From: Marinobacter algicola DG893
Lineage (GTDB): Bacteria; Pseudomonadota; Gammaproteobacteria; Pseudomonadales; Oleiphilaceae
DNA length: 64,000 bases
NCBI RefSeq assembly: GCF_000170835.1
Contig: NZ_ABCP01000004.1
Span: forward strand, 62,001 to 126,000
Direction of reading: 5' to 3'
Part shown: positions 58,056 to 64,000 of the stretch, piece after piece
How the letters are laid out: the number at the start of each line of letters is the position of its first letter
Position numbering within the stretch: the stretch's first letter is position 1
Translations under genes and position numbers: made by a program
Notes under the pieces: model-generated
Seen by the model: the letters and a program-made list of their open reading frames with translations, nothing else
Told to the model about the DNA's origin: nothing
Databases searched by the model: none

Positions 58056-59198
58056 TCAAAACGACTCGCGCATGATGTTTTCAATGGTTGGCCTTGGCAA
58101 CACAACGGGGTTGGCCTTCATGGAAGAAGAGCTTGCAGCCGACTGTGAGGCGGCAATAATGTGCTCTTCCGTCACTCCAATGGATGCCAGCCCGGGCAAG
58201 CCACTTTGACAGATCCATTCACGAAAACGTGGTAGCGCCTGATCCGCGGACGCCTCAAATATGTCTGCAATCCAGCCAACTACCCGATCAATACGAGCCT
58301 TATGCTCCGCCTCAACCACGCTATCGCGGTTGGCGGCTATACCTGCCGGCAACAAGGCACCACAGAGGGCACCATGGGGCGCACCAGATAATCCTCCCAA
58401 CGGACCGGCAATGCCATGAACGACACCCAGTCCCGAGTTTGCAAGTGCAAGCCCACCAAACAGACTCACTTGAGCCATGGCGTCACGCGCCTCTTCAGAC
58501 TCACCATCCATCAGTTGTTTTAACGCGGCCAGGCCTTTTGGGATCGCCTCTTTGCACAACATGTCGGTGAACAGATTGGAGCGTGACGAGAGATACGGCT
58601 CGATGACCTGGGTAATGGCATCCAGCCCTGAGTGCAAGGTAACACCCCGGGGACAATGGTCGGTCAGCGCAGGATCTATCAGGGCAAGGTCAGGGAGCAA
58701 CTGGTTATCCCGCAGACTCACCTTGCGCTGAGCTTCCGGAATATCAATGACCGCGTTTCGGGTCGCCTCTGCCCCCGTTCCCGAGGTGGTTGGAATCAGG
58801 ATCAAGGGCAGGCGCTGGGTGGATAACGGCAGCCCCTCTCCGACCACCTCCAGGTGGCTCATCAACTCGGTCTGGCTGGACAGCATCGCAGCCAGTACCT
58901 TCGCTGAATCCATGACAGAACCACCACCAATGCCGATGACCAGATCGACACCCAATGCTTTGCCTTGCCGAATGGCAGCATTCAGTGTCTGTAAATCTGG
59001 TTCCTTATGCACAGACATCGTTTGGACAATATCAACGGCATTCAGTGACTCGAATACCCTGGCAAGTCGATCAGGATGGCGGCCATGAACGATCAGTACT
59101 CGCTTGCCCAACCTTGTCACCCGGTCGCTCAGTTGGGCTATCTGTCCTCTCCCGAAGACAATGTCGGTCGGAGTTACCAGGCTAAAAGTGTCGGGCAT
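58056..59198 (-). CDS. Iron-containing alcohol dehydrogenase
   Basis: 380 residues, group III. The NAD site is VIGIGGGSVMDSAK. Metal ligands sit in DLALIDPAL-side and GLDAITQVIEP, GVVHGIAGPLGGL and APHGALCGALLP. It should oxidise a primary or secondary alcohol or reduce an aldehyde. It is divergent from phnD, and an operator palindrome lies 27 bp upstream of its ATG, so it is co-regulated with the transporter. Confidence 0.92.
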   Translation of the reverse strand: MPDTFSLVTPTDIVFGRGQIAQLSDRVTRLGKRVLIVHGRHPDRLARVFESLNAVDIVQTMSVHKEPDLQTLNAAIRQGKALGVDLVIGIGGGSVMDSAKVLAAMLSSQTELMSHLEVVGEGLPLSTQRLPLILIPTTSGTGAEATRNAVIDIPEAQRKVSLRDNQLLPDLALIDPALTDHCPRGVTLHSGLDAITQVIEPYLSSRSNLFTDMLCKEAIPKGLAALKQLMDGESEEARDAMAQVSLFGGLALANSGLGVVHGIAGPLGGLSGAPHGALCGALLPAGIAANRDSVVEAEHKARIDRVVGWIADIFEASADQALPRFREWICQSGLPGLASIGVTEEHIIAASQSAASSSSMKANPVVLPRPTIENIMRESF

Positions 59199-59225
59199 AG
59201 AGAAGATCGTCCTCGATATGGATGA

Positions 59226-59239
59226 TGTTCAATTGAACA
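59226..59239. promoter_or_regulatory. Operator palindrome TGTTCAATTGAACA, copy 1
   Basis: A perfect 14-bp palindrome, 27 bp upstream of the Fe-alcohol dehydrogenase start codon. The sequence is of the TGTTC...GAACA type bound by several DeoR family repressors, and a DeoR gene ends this locus. Confidence 0.75.
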
Positions 59240-59280
59240 CTAATTACGGTGTCGATCCAAGTGTTCCGATGCCTCTCACC

Positions 59281-59308
59281 TTGTCTAATGCTCATTTACT
59301 GTTATGCT
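59281..59308 (+). promoter_or_regulatory. Probable sigma-70 promoter of phnD operon
   Basis: TTGTCT (59281-59286), 16-bp spacer, TATGCT (59303-59308). The operator copy 2 begins 2 bp after the -10 element. Confidence 0.5.
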
Positions 59309-59310
59309 GA

Positions 59311-59326
59311 ATGTTCAATTGAACAT
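59311..59326. promoter_or_regulatory. Operator palindrome ATGTTCAATTGAACAT, copy 2
   Basis: A perfect 16-bp palindrome covering the expected phnD transcription start. It has the same core as copy 1, with centres 86 bp apart, so one repressor could bind both and loop the DNA. It is followed by a half-site at 59364-59373. Confidence 0.78.
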
Positions 59327-59363
59327 CTGATAATAACAAGCTGAGTGAGCTGGTCCTTCCCGG

Positions 59364-59373
59364 ATGTTCAATG
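59364..59373. promoter_or_regulatory. Operator half-site ATGTTCAATG
   Basis: The left half of the operator recurs here, 49 bases before the phnD start codon. The right half is degenerate. Confidence 0.35.
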
Positions 59374-59421
59374 CGAGGCAGAGAAACCTCAGGCATGGAC
59401 CGCTCCACATGGAGAAAAAGA

Positions 59422-60414
59422 ATGAACCTGTCTAAGAAAGTGTTTCCCGGTATTCTCCCGTCGGTGACTCTGGCGGCATCCGCCTTGCTGGTCGGCTTCA
59501 GCGGTCAGGCATTTGCGGATTGCGAACGAGGCTCGCTAGACGCCAAGTACTGCGACGAAAACGGCGATATGGTTGCTGACCTGCCAGCGGACAAATCAGA
59601 GTGGGTGAATCCCGACACTCTGATCTTTGCCTACACGCCGGTTGAAGACCCCGCCATCTATTCCGACATCTGGCAGCCCTTCATCGATCATCTGTCTGAA
59701 GTGACAGGCAAGGATGTTCGCTTCTTCGCCGTGCAATCCAACGCCGCGCAAGTGGAAGCCATGCGCAGCGGCCGTTTGCATGTGGCGGGCTTTTCTACCG
59801 GCCCAACGCCTTTCGCGGTTAATCTCGCCGGTGCGGTGCCCTTCGCCTTGATGGGCTCAGACTCCGGGCAGTTCGGCTACTCGCTTCAGGTCTACACCCA
59901 CGTCGATTCCGACATCCATGAAATAACCGACCTGAAAGGTAAGCGCGTCGCACACACCTCCCCTACCTCGAACTCCGGTAACCAGGCCCCCCGTGCCCTG
60001 TTCCCGGAAATGGGCGTGGTACCAGGTGACGACTATGAAATCACCTTCTCCGGCAGCCATGACCAGTCCATGCTCGGCGTAGTGGCCAAGGATTACGACG
60101 CGGCCCCTGTGGCCTCGGAAGTGGTTGAGCGTATGGCCGCGCGTGGGCTTTATGACGAGGAAGATGTGCGTCTGGTGTGGGAGTCCGACCGGTTCCCGAC
60201 AACCTCCTATAACCACGCCCACAACCTGCATCCCGAGCTGGTCGAGAAAATTCGTGAAGCCTTTTACAGCTTCAAGTTTTCCGGCACCGAGCTGGGCGAA
60301 GAGTTTGAGGGCGTCGAGACCTTCATCCCCATCAACTACAAGGACAACTGGCGCGTAATTCGCACCATCCAGGCGTCCAACGGCGTTCAGTACACGCCCG
60401 ACAATCTGAAATAA
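59422..60414 (+). CDS. phnD: PhnD-type substrate-binding protein of an ABC transporter
   Basis: 330 residues with a signal peptide ending at AFADCE (about residue 30). The PhnD fold begins LIFAYTPVEDPAIYSDIWQP and includes VRFFAVQSNAAQVEAMRSGR. The anion-binding loop reads SPTSNSGNQAPRAL, where E. coli PhnD has an STSG-type loop, so a phosphonate, phosphite or phosphate ester is the expected ligand. The ATG at 59422 follows ggagaaaaag. A hairpin follows the gene before phnC. Confidence 0.9.
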   Translation: MNLSKKVFPGILPSVTLAASALLVGFSGQAFADCERGSLDAKYCDENGDMVADLPADKSEWVNPDTLIFAYTPVEDPAIYSDIWQPFIDHLSEVTGKDVRFFAVQSNAAQVEAMRSGRLHVAGFSTGPTPFAVNLAGAVPFALMGSDSGQFGYSLQVYTHVDSDIHEITDLKGKRVAHTSPTSNSGNQAPRALFPEMGVVPGDDYEITFSGSHDQSMLGVVAKDYDAAPVASEVVERMAARGLYDEEDVRLVWESDRFPTTSYNHAHNLHPELVEKIREAFYSFKFSGTELGEEFEGVETFIPINYKDNWRVIRTIQASNGVQYTPDNLK

Positions 60415-60425
60415 GAGCAACAGGC

Positions 60426-60448
60426 GCTTCCGGCCAATGGCCGGAAGC
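60426..60448 (+). other. Hairpin between phnD and phnC
   Basis: A perfect 10-bp stem (gcttccggcc / ggccggaagc) with a 3-base loop, 12 bases past the phnD stop codon. It may protect the phnD message or partly terminate, giving more binding protein than permease. Confidence 0.6.
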
Positions 60449-60466
60449 TCTGGCCGGAGTGAATTC

Positions 60467-61261
60467 ATGTTAGAAATTACCAACCTGGTAAAGCGATACG
60501 GGCACAATGAGCCGGTGCTAAAAGGCCTGGATCTTGAGGTTGACGGCAGCAGCGTCGTTTCCATCGTCGGCGCTTCGGGCGCGGGGAAAAGCACACTGCT
60601 GCGCTGCATCAACCGGCTGGTTGAGCCCACATCGGGTTCGATCAAGTTGAATGGCCACCAACTGGTCAATCTTCGCGGCAGCGAATTGCGACATTCCCGC
60701 CGGCGTATCGGCATGGTTTTTCAGGGGTTTAACCTGATTGATCGCTTGACGGTCATGGAAAACGTGCTGTCCGGACGCTTGGGCTATGTGTCACTGTTCC
60801 AGGCCCTGACCCGCCGCTTCCCTCAATCGGATATCGATCGCGCCTTCCACCTGATGGAGCGCGTGGGTATCGCCCACTACGCCAATAATCGAGCCGACCA
60901 GTTGTCCGGGGGTGAACGGCAACGGGTAGCCGTAGTGCGGGCACTGATGCAGGAGCCGGAGATTCTGCTGGCGGATGAGCCAACCGCGTCGCTGGACCCC
61001 AAAACCTCTCAGCAGATCATGAGCCTGCTCCAAACCCTGGCCAGCGAAATGTCGCTGCCGGTGCTGATCAACATCCACAACGTCACTCAGGCGCGAATGT
61101 ACACGGATCGTATTGTGGGTATGCGGCACGGTCAGATGATTTTTGACGGTTCGCCCAAGGACTTCAACCAGGATGCGCTGGATGCCATTTACGGCGGCAT
61201 TGAGTCCCCGGACGAGGATGCGGCTGAGGCCGGCGCCCAAACCCAGGAGGCGACCGTATGA
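60467..61261 (+). CDS. phnC: PhnC-type ABC transporter ATPase
   Basis: 264 residues. Walker A GASGAGKST, signature LSGGERQRVAVVRAL, Walker B ILLADEPTASLD and the switch histidine in INIHNV. The GMVFQGFNLIDRLTVMENVL segment is typical of PhnC. The start at 60467 has ggag upstream. Its TGA overlaps the ATG of the first permease gene. Confidence 0.94.
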   Translation: MLEITNLVKRYGHNEPVLKGLDLEVDGSSVVSIVGASGAGKSTLLRCINRLVEPTSGSIKLNGHQLVNLRGSELRHSRRRIGMVFQGFNLIDRLTVMENVLSGRLGYVSLFQALTRRFPQSDIDRAFHLMERVGIAHYANNRADQLSGGERQRVAVVRALMQEPEILLADEPTASLDPKTSQQIMSLLQTLASEMSLPVLINIHNVTQARMYTDRIVGMRHGQMIFDGSPKDFNQDALDAIYGGIESPDEDAAEAGAQTQEATV

Positions 61262-62076
61262 CCACCAGCAGAACTGCAACCGACATGACGTCGGGCAGGG
61301 TCTGGAAGAAGCCCCCGTTCATAGCCAACCCCTGGCTCCGCTATGGCTTGATCGCCGTTACCCTGACTTATCTCTACTGGGCTTTCTCCACGCTACCCTT
61401 TGATTGGGCGCGAATTTCCGAGGGCCTGCCCCGAGCCGCCAAAATATTCGGTGGAGCCTTTCCTCCCAGCTTTGAGCGTGCCGGACTCTTGTGGACCGGC
61501 TTCAAGGAAAGCTTCCAGATTGCATTCCTGGCAACCCTGCTTGGGGTGTTTCTGTCGATACCTATTGCGGTGATGGCTGCCAAAAACGTGGCTCCGAAGC
61601 CAGTCTATCTGCTGGGGCGCGCCATCATCATTATCTCCCGCAGCTTCCACCCGGTCATCGTGGCCATCCTGTTTGTGGCGGCCGTCGGGTTTGGCCCCAT
61701 GGCAGGCATCCTGACCCTGACACTCTATTCCATCGGGTTCGTGGCCAAACTGTTGGCCGAAGAAATCGAAGAAATCGACTGGGGCCAGGTGGAAGCCATG
61801 CGCTCCGTCGGCGCAGGATATCTGAAGATGCTGATCTACGGCGTGTTTCCGCAGATCATGCCACGCCAGATTGGGCTATCCATGTACCAGCTCGACAGCA
61901 ACCTGCGCGCTTCCGCGGTGGTTGGCATTGTCGGAGCAGGCGGTATTGGCGGCACACTGATGAATGCGTTCGGACGTTACGATTACGACTTCGCCTTTGC
62001 CATTCTGCTGATGATTATTGGCATCATTCTGGTCAGCGAAGGCATAAGCGGATGGGTGAGGAAAAAAGTATGGTAG
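61258..62076 (+). CDS. phnE: PhnE-type ABC permease 1
   Basis: 272 residues, about six membrane helices. The ATPase-contact loop reads EEIEEIDWGQVEAMRSVGAG, followed by VFPQIMPRQIGLSMYQLDSN. It overlaps phnC by four bases and the next permease by seven, so the operon is tightly coupled. Confidence 0.93.
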   Translation: MTTSRTATDMTSGRVWKKPPFIANPWLRYGLIAVTLTYLYWAFSTLPFDWARISEGLPRAAKIFGGAFPPSFERAGLLWTGFKESFQIAFLATLLGVFLSIPIAVMAAKNVAPKPVYLLGRAIIIISRSFHPVIVAILFVAAVGFGPMAGILTLTLYSIGFVAKLLAEEIEEIDWGQVEAMRSVGAGYLKMLIYGVFPQIMPRQIGLSMYQLDSNLRASAVVGIVGAGGIGGTLMNAFGRYDYDFAFAILLMIIGIILVSEGISGWVRKKVW

Positions 62077-62879
62077 ATCACGCTGCGAAACTGACTGACC
62101 GTGTTTGGTCCCGCTACGACCGGAAAGAACAGTGGACCCGCTATGGGATCTACCTGGTAACCCTGATTGCGATTGTCTGGGCGGTGCGTGACATCGACAT
62201 TTTCTGGCCCTGGGTGTGGGACGCCCCCAACCAGATCCAGAACCTGGGTGCACGCATGTGGCCACCGGAGTTCAGCACCTGGAATGCCATCTTCGCGGCC
62301 ATGCTGGAAACCGTACACATTGCCACCCTGTCTACCATGCTCACGATATTCATTGCCCTGCCGGTGTCCTATATCGCGGCGCAGAACACCACACCGAACA
62401 AGGCCACCCTGTGGCTCGGTCGGTTTATTCTTGTGTCCAGCCGCTCAGTAAACACCATCATCTGGGCCCTGCTGTTCGTCGCCATTTTCGGCCCTGGGGT
62501 ACTTGCGGGCATTCTGGCGGTTATGTTCCGGTCAATCGGTTTCATTGGTAAACTGATGGGCGAGGCTATCGAGGAGATCGATCGCCGCCCCGTCGAAGCT
62601 ATGCAGGCAACCGGCGCCAGCAAAATGAAAGTAGTGCTGTACGCGATCGTGCCGCAGGTAATGCCAGCCTTTTTTGCCATCATCATCCTGCGCTGGGATA
62701 TCAACATCCGTGAATCCACCGTGCTTGGTTTGGTGGGCGCCGGTGGCATCGGAGTGCTGCTGCAAGGGTCTATCGACCTGTTTGCCTGGCAGACGGTGGC
62801 CACGATTCTGCTCGCTATTGTGGTGTTGGTAATTCTGGGCGAAGCACTAACCAGCGCCTTGCGCAAGAAAGTTATCTGA
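62070..62879 (+). CDS. phnE: PhnE-type ABC permease 2
   Basis: 269 residues. The contact loop is EAIEEIDRRPVEAMQATGAS, then IVPQVMPAFFAIIILRWDIN and STVLGLVGAGGIGVLL. The two permeases probably form a heterodimer. The frame is open far upstream, but the ATG at 62070 is the true start because earlier residues are a shadow of permease 1. Confidence 0.93.
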   Translation: MVDHAAKLTDRVWSRYDRKEQWTRYGIYLVTLIAIVWAVRDIDIFWPWVWDAPNQIQNLGARMWPPEFSTWNAIFAAMLETVHIATLSTMLTIFIALPVSYIAAQNTTPNKATLWLGRFILVSSRSVNTIIWALLFVAIFGPGVLAGILAVMFRSIGFIGKLMGEAIEEIDRRPVEAMQATGASKMKVVLYAIVPQVMPAFFAIIILRWDINIRESTVLGLVGAGGIGVLLQGSIDLFAWQTVATILLAIVVLVILGEALTSALRKKVI

Positions 62880-62895
62880 CGCGGAAACCCAGTCC

Positions 62896-63705
62896 ATGAC
62901 AAACAGCTTTAACTTTGGCCAAGCGGACGTATTGTTTACCGACGTGGACGATACCCTGACCACCGATGGTCAATTGCTGCCAGAAACCTATCTTGCCCTT
63001 TGTCGGCTGGCAGCGGCTGGTATTCGCGTGATTCCGGTGACCGGTGGTTGCGCCGGCTGGTGCGACCAGATCATCAGAACGTGGCCGGTCACTGCAGTAA
63101 TTGGTGAAGGCGGCGCCTTCTACGCCGAGCGGACCGCCCCCCAGACGGTCCGCTGGCACTACTGGAACGACGCAGCCGGCCATAAGCGTGACCAAGAGGC
63201 CATACTGACTGCAGTCGCCGCACTGGATCTGGACTTCGAACCACAACTCGCCAGCGACCAGGCCTTCCGCTATGTCGATGTAGCGGTCGACTACAACCAG
63301 CAGCAGTCTTTAAGCTCAGAGCAAGTAGCGGTTCTTCATAATGCTCTGGTTGGCCGGGGCTTCAACGTTCGGCAAAGCTCGATCCACCTCAACATCTGGC
63401 TCGGCGACTTTGACAAGTCCACGATGGCCGTGCGTGTAGGGCAGGAAGTGCTGGGACTGGATCTGCAGGCGTTGCAACAGCGCGCAGTTTTCATTGGTGA
63501 CGCACCCAATGACGAAAGCATGTTTCGATGTTTTCCACTAAGTGTTGGCGTGGCAAACATTCGCAAGCATCTGCCCGGGATGACCCATCGGCCGGCCGCC
63601 GTTGTCAGCCAGCGTTCCGGGCTGGGCTTCGCGGAAATGGCCGAAAACTGGCTGAGGCAACGGACCGAATCCGACCTGCCGCAGGCCGAAACACATCCTG
63701 TGTGA
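62896..63705 (+). CDS. HAD-IIB family phosphatase
   Basis: 269 residues. Motif I is DVDDTLTTDG, motif II the T in VIPVTGGCAGW, motif III the K in GDFDKSTMAV and motif IV GDAPNDESM. The type IIB cap fits sugar- or polyol-phosphate phosphatases such as the SPP/Cof group, not the phosphonatase PhnX, which is a different HAD class. It sits 16 bp after permease 2 and likely dephosphorylates an imported compound or a product from it. Confidence 0.9.
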   Translation: MTNSFNFGQADVLFTDVDDTLTTDGQLLPETYLALCRLAAAGIRVIPVTGGCAGWCDQIIRTWPVTAVIGEGGAFYAERTAPQTVRWHYWNDAAGHKRDQEAILTAVAALDLDFEPQLASDQAFRYVDVAVDYNQQQSLSSEQVAVLHNALVGRGFNVRQSSIHLNIWLGDFDKSTMAVRVGQEVLGLDLQALQQRAVFIGDAPNDESMFRCFPLSVGVANIRKHLPGMTHRPAAVVSQRSGLGFAEMAENWLRQRTESDLPQAETHPV

Positions 63706-63719
63706 TCAAGCCAGGGGTA

Positions 63720-64000
63720 ATGGACCGAGTATCTAATCTGATGGGCGCCAAAGATCGGCAAAAAAGCATTCTGGATTGGGTGAACGAGCAGAAGCATGTC
63801 GAGGTTGAAGACATTGCCCAACGCTTTGGAGTCACCACCCAAACCATTCGCCGAGACATCAACAAACTGTGCGAACAGGGTGTGCTACGTCGCCGTTATG
63901 GCGGCGTCAGCCTACCGGCCAGTGCCACGATTTCTCCCGTTGAAAACGCGCGGATCCATCATCATGCCACCAAGCAGCAGATGGCTCAGCGGGTTGCAAT
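63720..64000 (+). CDS. DeoR family transcriptional regulator, 5' part
   Basis: The gene runs off the window; 93 residues are seen. The DeoR helix-turn-helix is VEVEDIAQRFGVTTQTIRRD, then INKLCEQGVLRRRYGGVSLP, the start of the usual sugar-phosphate-binding domain. The start could be the ATG at 63720 or at 63741. It is the last gene of the phn operon and the likely repressor acting at the TGTTCAATTGAACA sites. Confidence 0.9.
   Translation, partial: MDRVSNLMGAKDRQKSILDWVNEQKHVEVEDIAQRFGVTTQTIRRDINKLCEQGVLRRRYGGVSLPASATISPVENARIHHHATKQQMAQRVA

Follow-up and report, generated by a model that had tools for sequence, protein, structure and literature searches.

What does a phnDCEE transporter import when the genes that follow it encode a HAD-IIB phosphatase and a DeoR-type repressor? 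The question is raised by an operon near one end of a 64,000-nucleotide stretch of Marinobacter algicola DG893 (NZ_ABCP01000004.1, positions 62,001 to 126,000; hereafter the window), part of a 4.41-Mb genome of 99.95% completeness. A sequence-only reading had named these genes together with one for an iron-containing alcohol dehydrogenase (Fe-ADH), and had proposed import of a phosphorylated alcohol or an unusual hydroxyalkyl phosphonate, removal of phosphate, and oxidation of the alcohol. All seven named genes are present, in the order described, as long open reading frames (ORFs) with family matches (Table 1). With a probability of about 0.72, we conclude that the operon is a Marinobacter unit for glycerol-phosphate uptake and salvage, comprising import, dephosphorylation by the HAD enzyme and control by a GlpR-like repressor. 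The genes, their order, the pocket and catalytic residues and the palindromes are seen in the sequence, and binding of two glycerol phosphates has been demonstrated by others in a protein with 51% identity; import in this organism, the phosphatase reaction and its isomer range, the occupant of the palindrome and the inducer are inferred.

The binding protein points to the cargo. Its closest solved sequence is 9LF9/9LFB (E 2e-100), with 51% identity to 9LF9 over 290 residues. As described in the main text of the corresponding paper, these are structures of GpxB from Marinobacter sp. DSM11874, solved with glycerol-1-phosphate (G1P) and glycerol-3-phosphate (G3P), for which dissociation constants of 1.72 and 1.06 µM, respectively, are given; the ligand residues are T111, G112, Y138, S168, N169, S170, H199, R223 and T247 in the paper's numbering (PMC12718374). 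The window protein retains all nine, as T143, G144, Y170, S200, N201, S202, H230, R254 and T278 (numbered from 59371). An alignment of 73 rows, three of which are the window protein and two copies of it, shows all nine unchanged in 63 and Ser in place of the last Thr in 8. Two rows diverge more, reading PGMSNSHHD (L134) and PLYSTSHHY (L001, a second PhnD-like protein of the same genome), so the nine-residue pocket is not common to every PhnD-like protein. The window branch of GpxB has 69–100% identity internally and 45–57% to other fetched Gpx loci. Judged by its pocket, the window PhnD is most likely of the glycerol-1/3-phosphate type and not a phosphonate binder. A phosphorylated alcohol, the first of the two cargoes proposed earlier, is thus probably right, and the hydroxyalkyl phosphonate is not supported.

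The two divergent proteins merit separate mention. L134 (genome G943) is a PhnD homologue with 53% identity, altered at 4 of the 9 ligand positions, and may bind a different ligand. L001 (G000:C104:358134) is a PtxB-like paralogue with 31% identity to the window PhnD; window Thr278 aligns with a Tyr of L001, in a column that may correspond to PtxB Tyr208, the aromatic cap over the small ligand in phosphite and hypophosphite binders. By its resemblance to PtxB, it may be of the phosphite type.

Could the system nonetheless serve phosphonate or phosphite uptake, with the Fe-ADH oxidizing an imported hydroxyalkyl phosphonate and the HAD dephosphonylating it? The family names PhnD, PhnC and PhnE suggest as much, as do scores above the cut-offs of TIGR01098, TIGR02315 and TIGR01097. 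The Fe-ADH, moreover, matches TIGR03405, a model of phosphonate-locus Fe-ADHs by name, but at 150.8 bits it lies far below the cut-off of 423.7. Yet the GpxB pocket is kept, and the window PhnD reaches only 136.7 bits with the PhnD equivalog model TIGR03431 (cut-off 261.1). PhnJ has no match in the window's own genome, in a search with a positive E. coli control (PhnX, PhnW, PhnZ and PtxD were not searched genome-wide). The HAD's partner genes are those of Ugp, GDPD and GlpD, and the Fe-ADH is not conserved. We regard this explanation as very improbable, and reject a phosphonate or phosphite cargo on the strength of the pocket, the missing PhnJ and the partner genes.

The HAD protein has all four HAD motifs (DxD, T, K and GDxxND) and passes the TIGR01484 cut-off. 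In an alignment of 36 of 41 prepared rows (excluding L064 and L079, with truncated ORF calls, and the plasmid records L091, L094 and L095), D16, T49, K174, G201, D202, N205 and D206 are invariant, and D18 is nearly so. Removal of phosphate, as envisaged in the sequence-only reading, is its probable function. Its confident AlphaFold model (predicted local distance difference test score 95.2) lies nearest to the solved folds of PH1421 (1wr8; Z 24.9, root-mean-square deviation 2.5, 225 aligned) and TA0175 (1kyt; Z 23.8, deviation 2.4, 222 aligned), which we take to be small-molecule phosphatases. No informative relative of the HAD came up in a PDB sequence search (best E 0.0048). Its substrate, G1P or G3P, is predicted from genomic context only, and any isomer preference is likewise putative.

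That context ties the enzyme to glycerol-phosphate importers. The HAD has its nearest named relative in Marinobacter salarius R9SW1 (98%). Of the 390 genomes searched in the order, 42 encode the HAD, at 47 places, all of them opened and classified by BLAST against selected neighbouring genes. These comprise 26 UgpBAEC operons, 13 Gpx (PhnDCEE) operons, 4 CUT1-like operons and 4 places elsewhere, 2 of the latter adjoining a TRAP transporter. GDPD accompanies the HAD in 26/26 and DeoR in 24/26 Ugp operons; DeoR is found in 12/13 Gpx operons, and the 4 CUT1-like operons carry DeoR plus an endonuclease/exonuclease/phosphatase (EEP)-family gene. Rhizobium plasmid records have the order ugpB-ugpA-ugpE-ugpC-GDPD-DeoR-HAD. 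Among 120 Marinobacter genomes, window-type GpxB (at least 83% identity) occurs in 29, and 28 of these have the HAD no more than 4 kb from the transporter; the HAD is found in 2 of the 91 genomes lacking window-type GpxB, both times inside a CUT1-like operon. A GDPD gene follows DeoR in two Marinobacter loci, L181 and L183. These data show that the HAD-IIB/DeoR pair is tied to glycerol-phosphate uptake beyond Gpx, across two unrelated importers. The locus sets partly share genomes (e.g. L060/L170 and L050/L180), so each count is confined to one set, and some loci are short where contigs end (e.g. L138, 5.0 kb).

The association was also followed across the phylum, in 398 genomes with 32 HAD places (overlapping the order sample in G000, G093, G026 and G065). 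Eight places are in Ugp operons, six beside Gpx, two beside GlpD or a G1P-dehydrogenase-like gene, one beside a TRAP transporter with GDPD and DeoR, and 15 elsewhere. The 24 newly opened places divide by motif. All five TG[GA][CS]AGW proteins are in a Ugp or TRAP-plus-GDPD setting; none of the 15 TGRPxGW proteins is, and 2 of these adjoin GlpD. Neither motif is found in the other four rows, two from Ugp operons (L204 and L206) and two from elsewhere (L215 and L221). The first motif is present in 46 of the 47 HADs of the order, and it is only for the TG[GA][CS]AGW subfamily that we claim the glycerol-phosphate link.

A quick, midpoint-rooted tree of 61 HAD rows (a motif filter removed L171, L091, L092, L094, L095 and L096) places a main group of 15 Gpx-associated enzymes within a branch (95) shared with 6 Ugp-associated ones. 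The enzymes of L099 and L125/L126 fall apart from that group, and the starred branches require at least two changes of the Gpx label. The direction and number of transfers are unsure, because the L099 branch is long and the root only a midpoint.

Several loci extend the picture. The HAD adjoins TRAP-type genes at L116:8019-10148 (DctM by Pfam), L178 and L209, the last with GDPD and DeoR nearby; these are possibly a third type of glycerol-phosphate importer. A CUT1-like importer accompanies the HAD in L112, L113, L115, L177, L066, L068, L069, L192 and L193, most of which also have DeoR and an EEP-family gene. In rhizobial or related records (L095:6551-8723, L096:6554-10270 and L200), an sn-glycerol-1-phosphate dehydrogenase-like gene occurs with a TGRP-type HAD; L096 and L200 also have a GlpD-like gene, and L095 and L096 an ABC sugar transporter. 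On a Salmonella IncHI2 plasmid (L093:473-8693), a distant HAD-IIB relative lies near crcB, enolase, pyrophosphatase, phosphoglycerate mutase and a chloride-channel-type gene, which we take to resemble an island for fluoride resistance that carries extra copies of enzymes sensitive to fluoride.

Do Gpx loci at large have such partners? We inspected 40 of 41 different places (G1092, at 36% identity, was excluded from the count). Here as in the other counts, neighbours were for the most part identified by eye or by BLAST with a chosen set of genes. The chosen genes for GlpD, DeoR, GDPD (both types), histidine phosphatase (both), HAD-IIA, Gph, Na/Pi symporter, DctM, EEP, both CUT1-like binding proteins and the response regulator were verified with Pfam or NCBIfam; among single neighbour matches, the Pfam check covered, and confirmed, the GDPD of L183 only. 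The HAD-IIA of L136 scores below the TIGR01460 cut-off (90.8 versus 100.15), yet Pfam HAD models match it. A phosphatase (HAD-IIB, HAD-IIA, histidine phosphatase or Gph) adjoins 19 of the 40 loci, GlpD 3 and GDPD 2, with none of these beside the remaining 16. With the 8 loci that supplied query genes set aside, partner matches number 20 in 152 kb within 2.5 kb and 0 in 312 kb farther away, a contrast somewhat flattered because the query genes were picked after the neighbours were seen. In three genomes of one genus from another class, GlpD starts 2 bp downstream of the transporter (PhnD 69–70% identity) and a divergent DeoR gene precedes it; the one such GlpD tested scores 777 bits (cut-off 360). 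Second-branch Gpx loci (L125–L128 and L143–L145) have a sensor kinase and a response regulator, of the sigma-54 activator type in L125, and several have GDPD.

This variety bears on whether the HAD acts on a side product such as phosphoglycolate or another small ester, its tie to glycerol-phosphate importers then being one of repair. The enzyme's nearest folds are compatible with that explanation, as TA0175 is presumably a phosphoglycolate phosphatase, and so are matches to phosphoglycolate phosphatase models, weak and far below cut-off, and a Gph above its own cut-off beside one Gpx locus (L133). In other Gpx loci this position is filled by phosphatases of several families, a pattern more indicative of the cargo than of a rare side product, and we consider the repair role quite unlikely.

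A closer competitor accepts glycerol phosphate as the cargo and holds that the HAD mainly strips G3P, for phosphorus supply or against G3P build-up, with G1P incidental. The same HAD occurs in Ugp operons with GDPD, classically a G3P supply, and Na/Pi symporter genes lie near some such operons (L101, L103, L170 and L176). The window unit, on the other hand, has a DeoR regulator, and DeoR-type regulators are carbon-responsive. In addition, both binding proteins accept both isomers, according to the main text of the GpxB paper (PMC12718374). We rate this explanation as possible but doubtful. Na/Pi symporter-type genes adjoin Ugp-HAD or Gpx loci also at L130 and L148, and could dispose of released phosphate.

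Regulation provides a further connection. Two palindromes precede phnD, the perfect ATGTTCAATTGAACAT and the related ATGTTCAATTGAACAC. The window has 2 matches at up to 3 mismatches (0.23 expected; 2 of 100 shuffles reach 2), and the whole genome has only one further place within 2 mismatches, with none for a reversed control pattern. Of 23 named loci with a PhnDCEE-HAD operon, 19 have TGTTC-N4-GAACA at the start of the phnD ORF or ahead of it. Related palindromes occur before ugpB in Rhizobium (ATGTTCATTTGAACAT), in Saccharospirillum-type loci (GTGTTCGATCGAACAT and ATGTTCGTTCGAACAA) and, in a further genus from outside the class, at two of three Ugp loci (L199 and L201, not L198); within the order, one genus has TTTCA-NN-TGAAA at 15 of 17 Ugp loci. 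A common core, [GT]TTCAWWTGAA[AC] (inner core TTCAWWTGAA), lies before the first transporter gene in 9/13 Gpx, 18/26 Ugp and 0/4 CUT1-like loci. Base shuffling predicts 0.05 sites, a contrast that is optimistic because the pattern was drawn up with these loci already known. All 23 aligned DeoR proteins have a similar recognition region, QT[IV]R[RK]D[IL]. No clear common palindrome was seen in 15 Vibrio ugp upstream regions. We infer that DeoR occupies the predicted palindrome before its own operon, and a DeoR repressor fits a phosphorylated polyol, as the sequence-only reading had it.

Together, these elements suggest the following scheme. The PhnC/E/E-type ABC transporter would import G1P and G3P, and the HAD-IIB enzyme would hydrolyse the imported ester to glycerol and phosphate. 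Glycerol could then enter the ordinary pool through glycerol kinase and a GlpD-like protein; the genome has two glycerol kinases above cut-off and a GlpD-like protein below it (265 bits, cut-off 360). GlpD acts specifically on the sn-3 isomer; for both isomers to enter the glycerol pool, the simplest route would be a phosphatase. The DeoR/GlpR-type repressor would sit on one or two ATGTTCAATTGAACAT operators before phnD, to be released by imported glycerol phosphate.

Several observations weigh against the glycerol-phosphate salvage unit as we describe it. Given the glycerol kinases and GlpD-like protein of the genome, G3P does not strictly require the HAD, and hydrolysing it after import would cost an ATP. 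Two broad models, TIGR01098 (phosphate/phosphite/phosphonate) and Pfam Phosphonate-bd, also accept the window PhnD; because these span several cargoes, family scores alone leave the cargo undecided. Listed partners are missing from the 16 Gpx loci noted above, and once the 8 loci that supplied queries are removed a partner is found in 16 of 32. One genome, G1100, has the transporter with neither HAD nor DeoR. A single genus contributes 17 of the 26 Ugp-HAD places and 15 of the 18 Ugp places with the operator core, and because of this dominance they do not represent that many independent events. As a general rule the HAD association is weakened by the 15 of 32 phylum places in unrelated settings, at 34–44% identity and mostly of the TGRPxGW subfamily. 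The strict core is absent from 4/13 Gpx, 8/26 Ugp and 4/4 CUT1-like loci, and a promoter scan gave no consensus sigma-70 promoter between the operators and phnD.

Table 1. Features of the predicted glycerol-phosphate operon and its divergent neighbour (window coordinates).
Feature	Coordinates	Strand	Remarks
Fe-ADH (iron-containing alcohol dehydrogenase)	58056..59198	-	PF00465, PF25137; divergently oriented, at most accessory
Predicted DeoR operator, second copy, ATGTTCAATTGAACAC, 1 mismatch	59225..59240	+	~27 bp before Fe-ADH start
Predicted DeoR operator, perfect 16-bp palindrome ATGTTCAATTGAACAT	59311..59326	+	
Substrate-binding protein, GpxB type (annotated PhnD)	59371..60414	+	likely start 59422
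PhnC-family ABC transporter ATPase	60437..61261	+	TIGR02315 314.8 bits, cut-off 266.1
PhnE-family permease 1	61258..62076	+	TIGR01097 269.8 bits, cut-off 216.7
Permease 2 (PhnE2)	62070..62879	+	PF00528 (BPD_transp_1)
HAD-IIB phosphatase, predicted glycerol-1/3-phosphate phosphatase	62896..63705	+	TIGR01484 53.0 bits, cut-off 41.8
DeoR/GlpR-type repressor	63741..64502 window-equivalent (L008:7742-8503), 5' part to 64000	+	PF08220 72.4, PF00455 140.4 bits

A GGAG seven bases ahead of the ATG suggests the phnD start listed. At the other end, DeoR, with both HTH_DeoR and DeoRC domains, is the last gene of the operon, ending just beyond the window. We read ~11.9 kb past 64000 (ORFs of at least 150 amino acids). 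A same-strand ORF without a Pfam match is followed by an opposite-strand run encoding an HTH/MmyB-type regulator, a DUF4124 protein, DoxX and two DUF2063 plus MbnB/TglH/ChrH-type pairs. No phosphonate enzyme was seen among the Pfam-scanned genes of this region, in line with the earlier remark that none was in view. The only terminator candidate after deoR is weak, on the minus strand and under the shuffle mean. The two DUF2063 plus MbnB/TglH/ChrH-type pairs (L008:13218-16928, with the DoxX gene; PF05114 345.5 and 378.4 bits) look like two copies of a locus for modification of ribosomally synthesized and post-translationally modified peptides.

The Fe-ADH had been cast as the enzyme that oxidizes the alcohol. 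The gene is present, but it is divergent and in most relatives does not lie beside phnD. The protein falls below the cut-off of all 17 NCBIfam models that it matched. A homologue (at least 73% identity) occurs in 27 of the 120 Marinobacter genomes and adjoins phnD in 5 of the 29 with the operon; the six unlinked copies inspected have varied surroundings, and on these grounds we rejected the Fe-ADH as a constant part of the operon. It may still be a true part that oxidizes the glycerol freed by the HAD. Its occurrence is enriched with the operon (19/29 versus 8/91 genomes, Fisher p 3e-9; 24/50 versus 3/70 when either Gpx branch is counted; both uncorrected for descent), and a functional link is therefore possible. 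The second operator copy adjoins the Fe-ADH start in M. salarius R9SW1 (L039) as it does in the window. Against this stand the few linked cases, the absence of any operator within 4 mismatches in the 400 bp before the six unlinked copies, and the close relative L040, in which no Fe-ADH gene separates phnD from the AraC-type gene. We consider a role for the Fe-ADH in the unit unlikely, and the proposed alcohol oxidation correspondingly weak.

The transporter itself belongs to a kind published in December 2025, in a paper on bacterial uptake of G1P, the archaeal lipid backbone (PMC12718374). Glycerol phosphates form the backbone of membrane lipids in general, G1P being the mirror-image form found in archaea. 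According to its main text, a Phaeobacter gpxB ugpB double mutant loses growth on G1P and G3P; the step after import is left open there, the conclusion calls for work on regulation, and the words phosphatase and DeoR are absent (PMC12718374). The open-licence literature yielded nothing pertinent on a HAD or DeoR with ugpB, G1P phosphatase, G1P degradation or GlpR operators. Neither the pairing of the HAD and DeoR with two unrelated importers nor their common operator was found in that literature, and these are what is new. The operon offers a candidate enzyme, a candidate regulator and a predicted DNA site for the steps after G1P import. Going further, we tentatively propose, as a plausible extension short of an even chance, that HADs with TG[GA][CS]AGW are dedicated, stereo-tolerant G1P phosphatases, the missing cytosolic step for marine bacteria living on the archaeal lipid backbone, with a HAD-DeoR cassette joined to Gpx and Ugp under one operator code. 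The cassette is common to two transporters that converged on one cargo. "Phosphonate transporter" genes beside phosphatases may likewise be glycerol-phosphate systems, which would affect counts of marine phosphonate use.

Of the known systems, GlpR regulation in E. coli shares the DeoR family with the window unit. The window half-site, ATGTTC/GAACAT, presumably resembles the E. coli GlpR operator, with a spacer of 4 bases that we take to be 6 in E. coli. PhnCDE of C-P lyase loci belongs to the same transporter superfamily and differs from the window system in the pocket, in the sub-cut-off PhnD equivalog score of the latter, and in its genome without PhnJ. UgpBAEC operons with a UgpQ-like gene have the same HAD-IIB and DeoR companions and, in many cases, a related operator core; their transporter is unrelated (CUT1) and they include GDPD, whereas the window system is of the PhnT family and without GDPD. 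Closest are the GpxB transporters of Phaeobacter sp. MED193 and Marinobacter sp. DSM11874, of PhnT family 3.A.1.9 (PMC12718374). The window system is likewise a PhnT-family ABC importer, with the 51% identity and nine ligand residues described above, but its binding protein lies in another branch, and its operon adds a HAD-IIB enzyme and a DeoR regulator.

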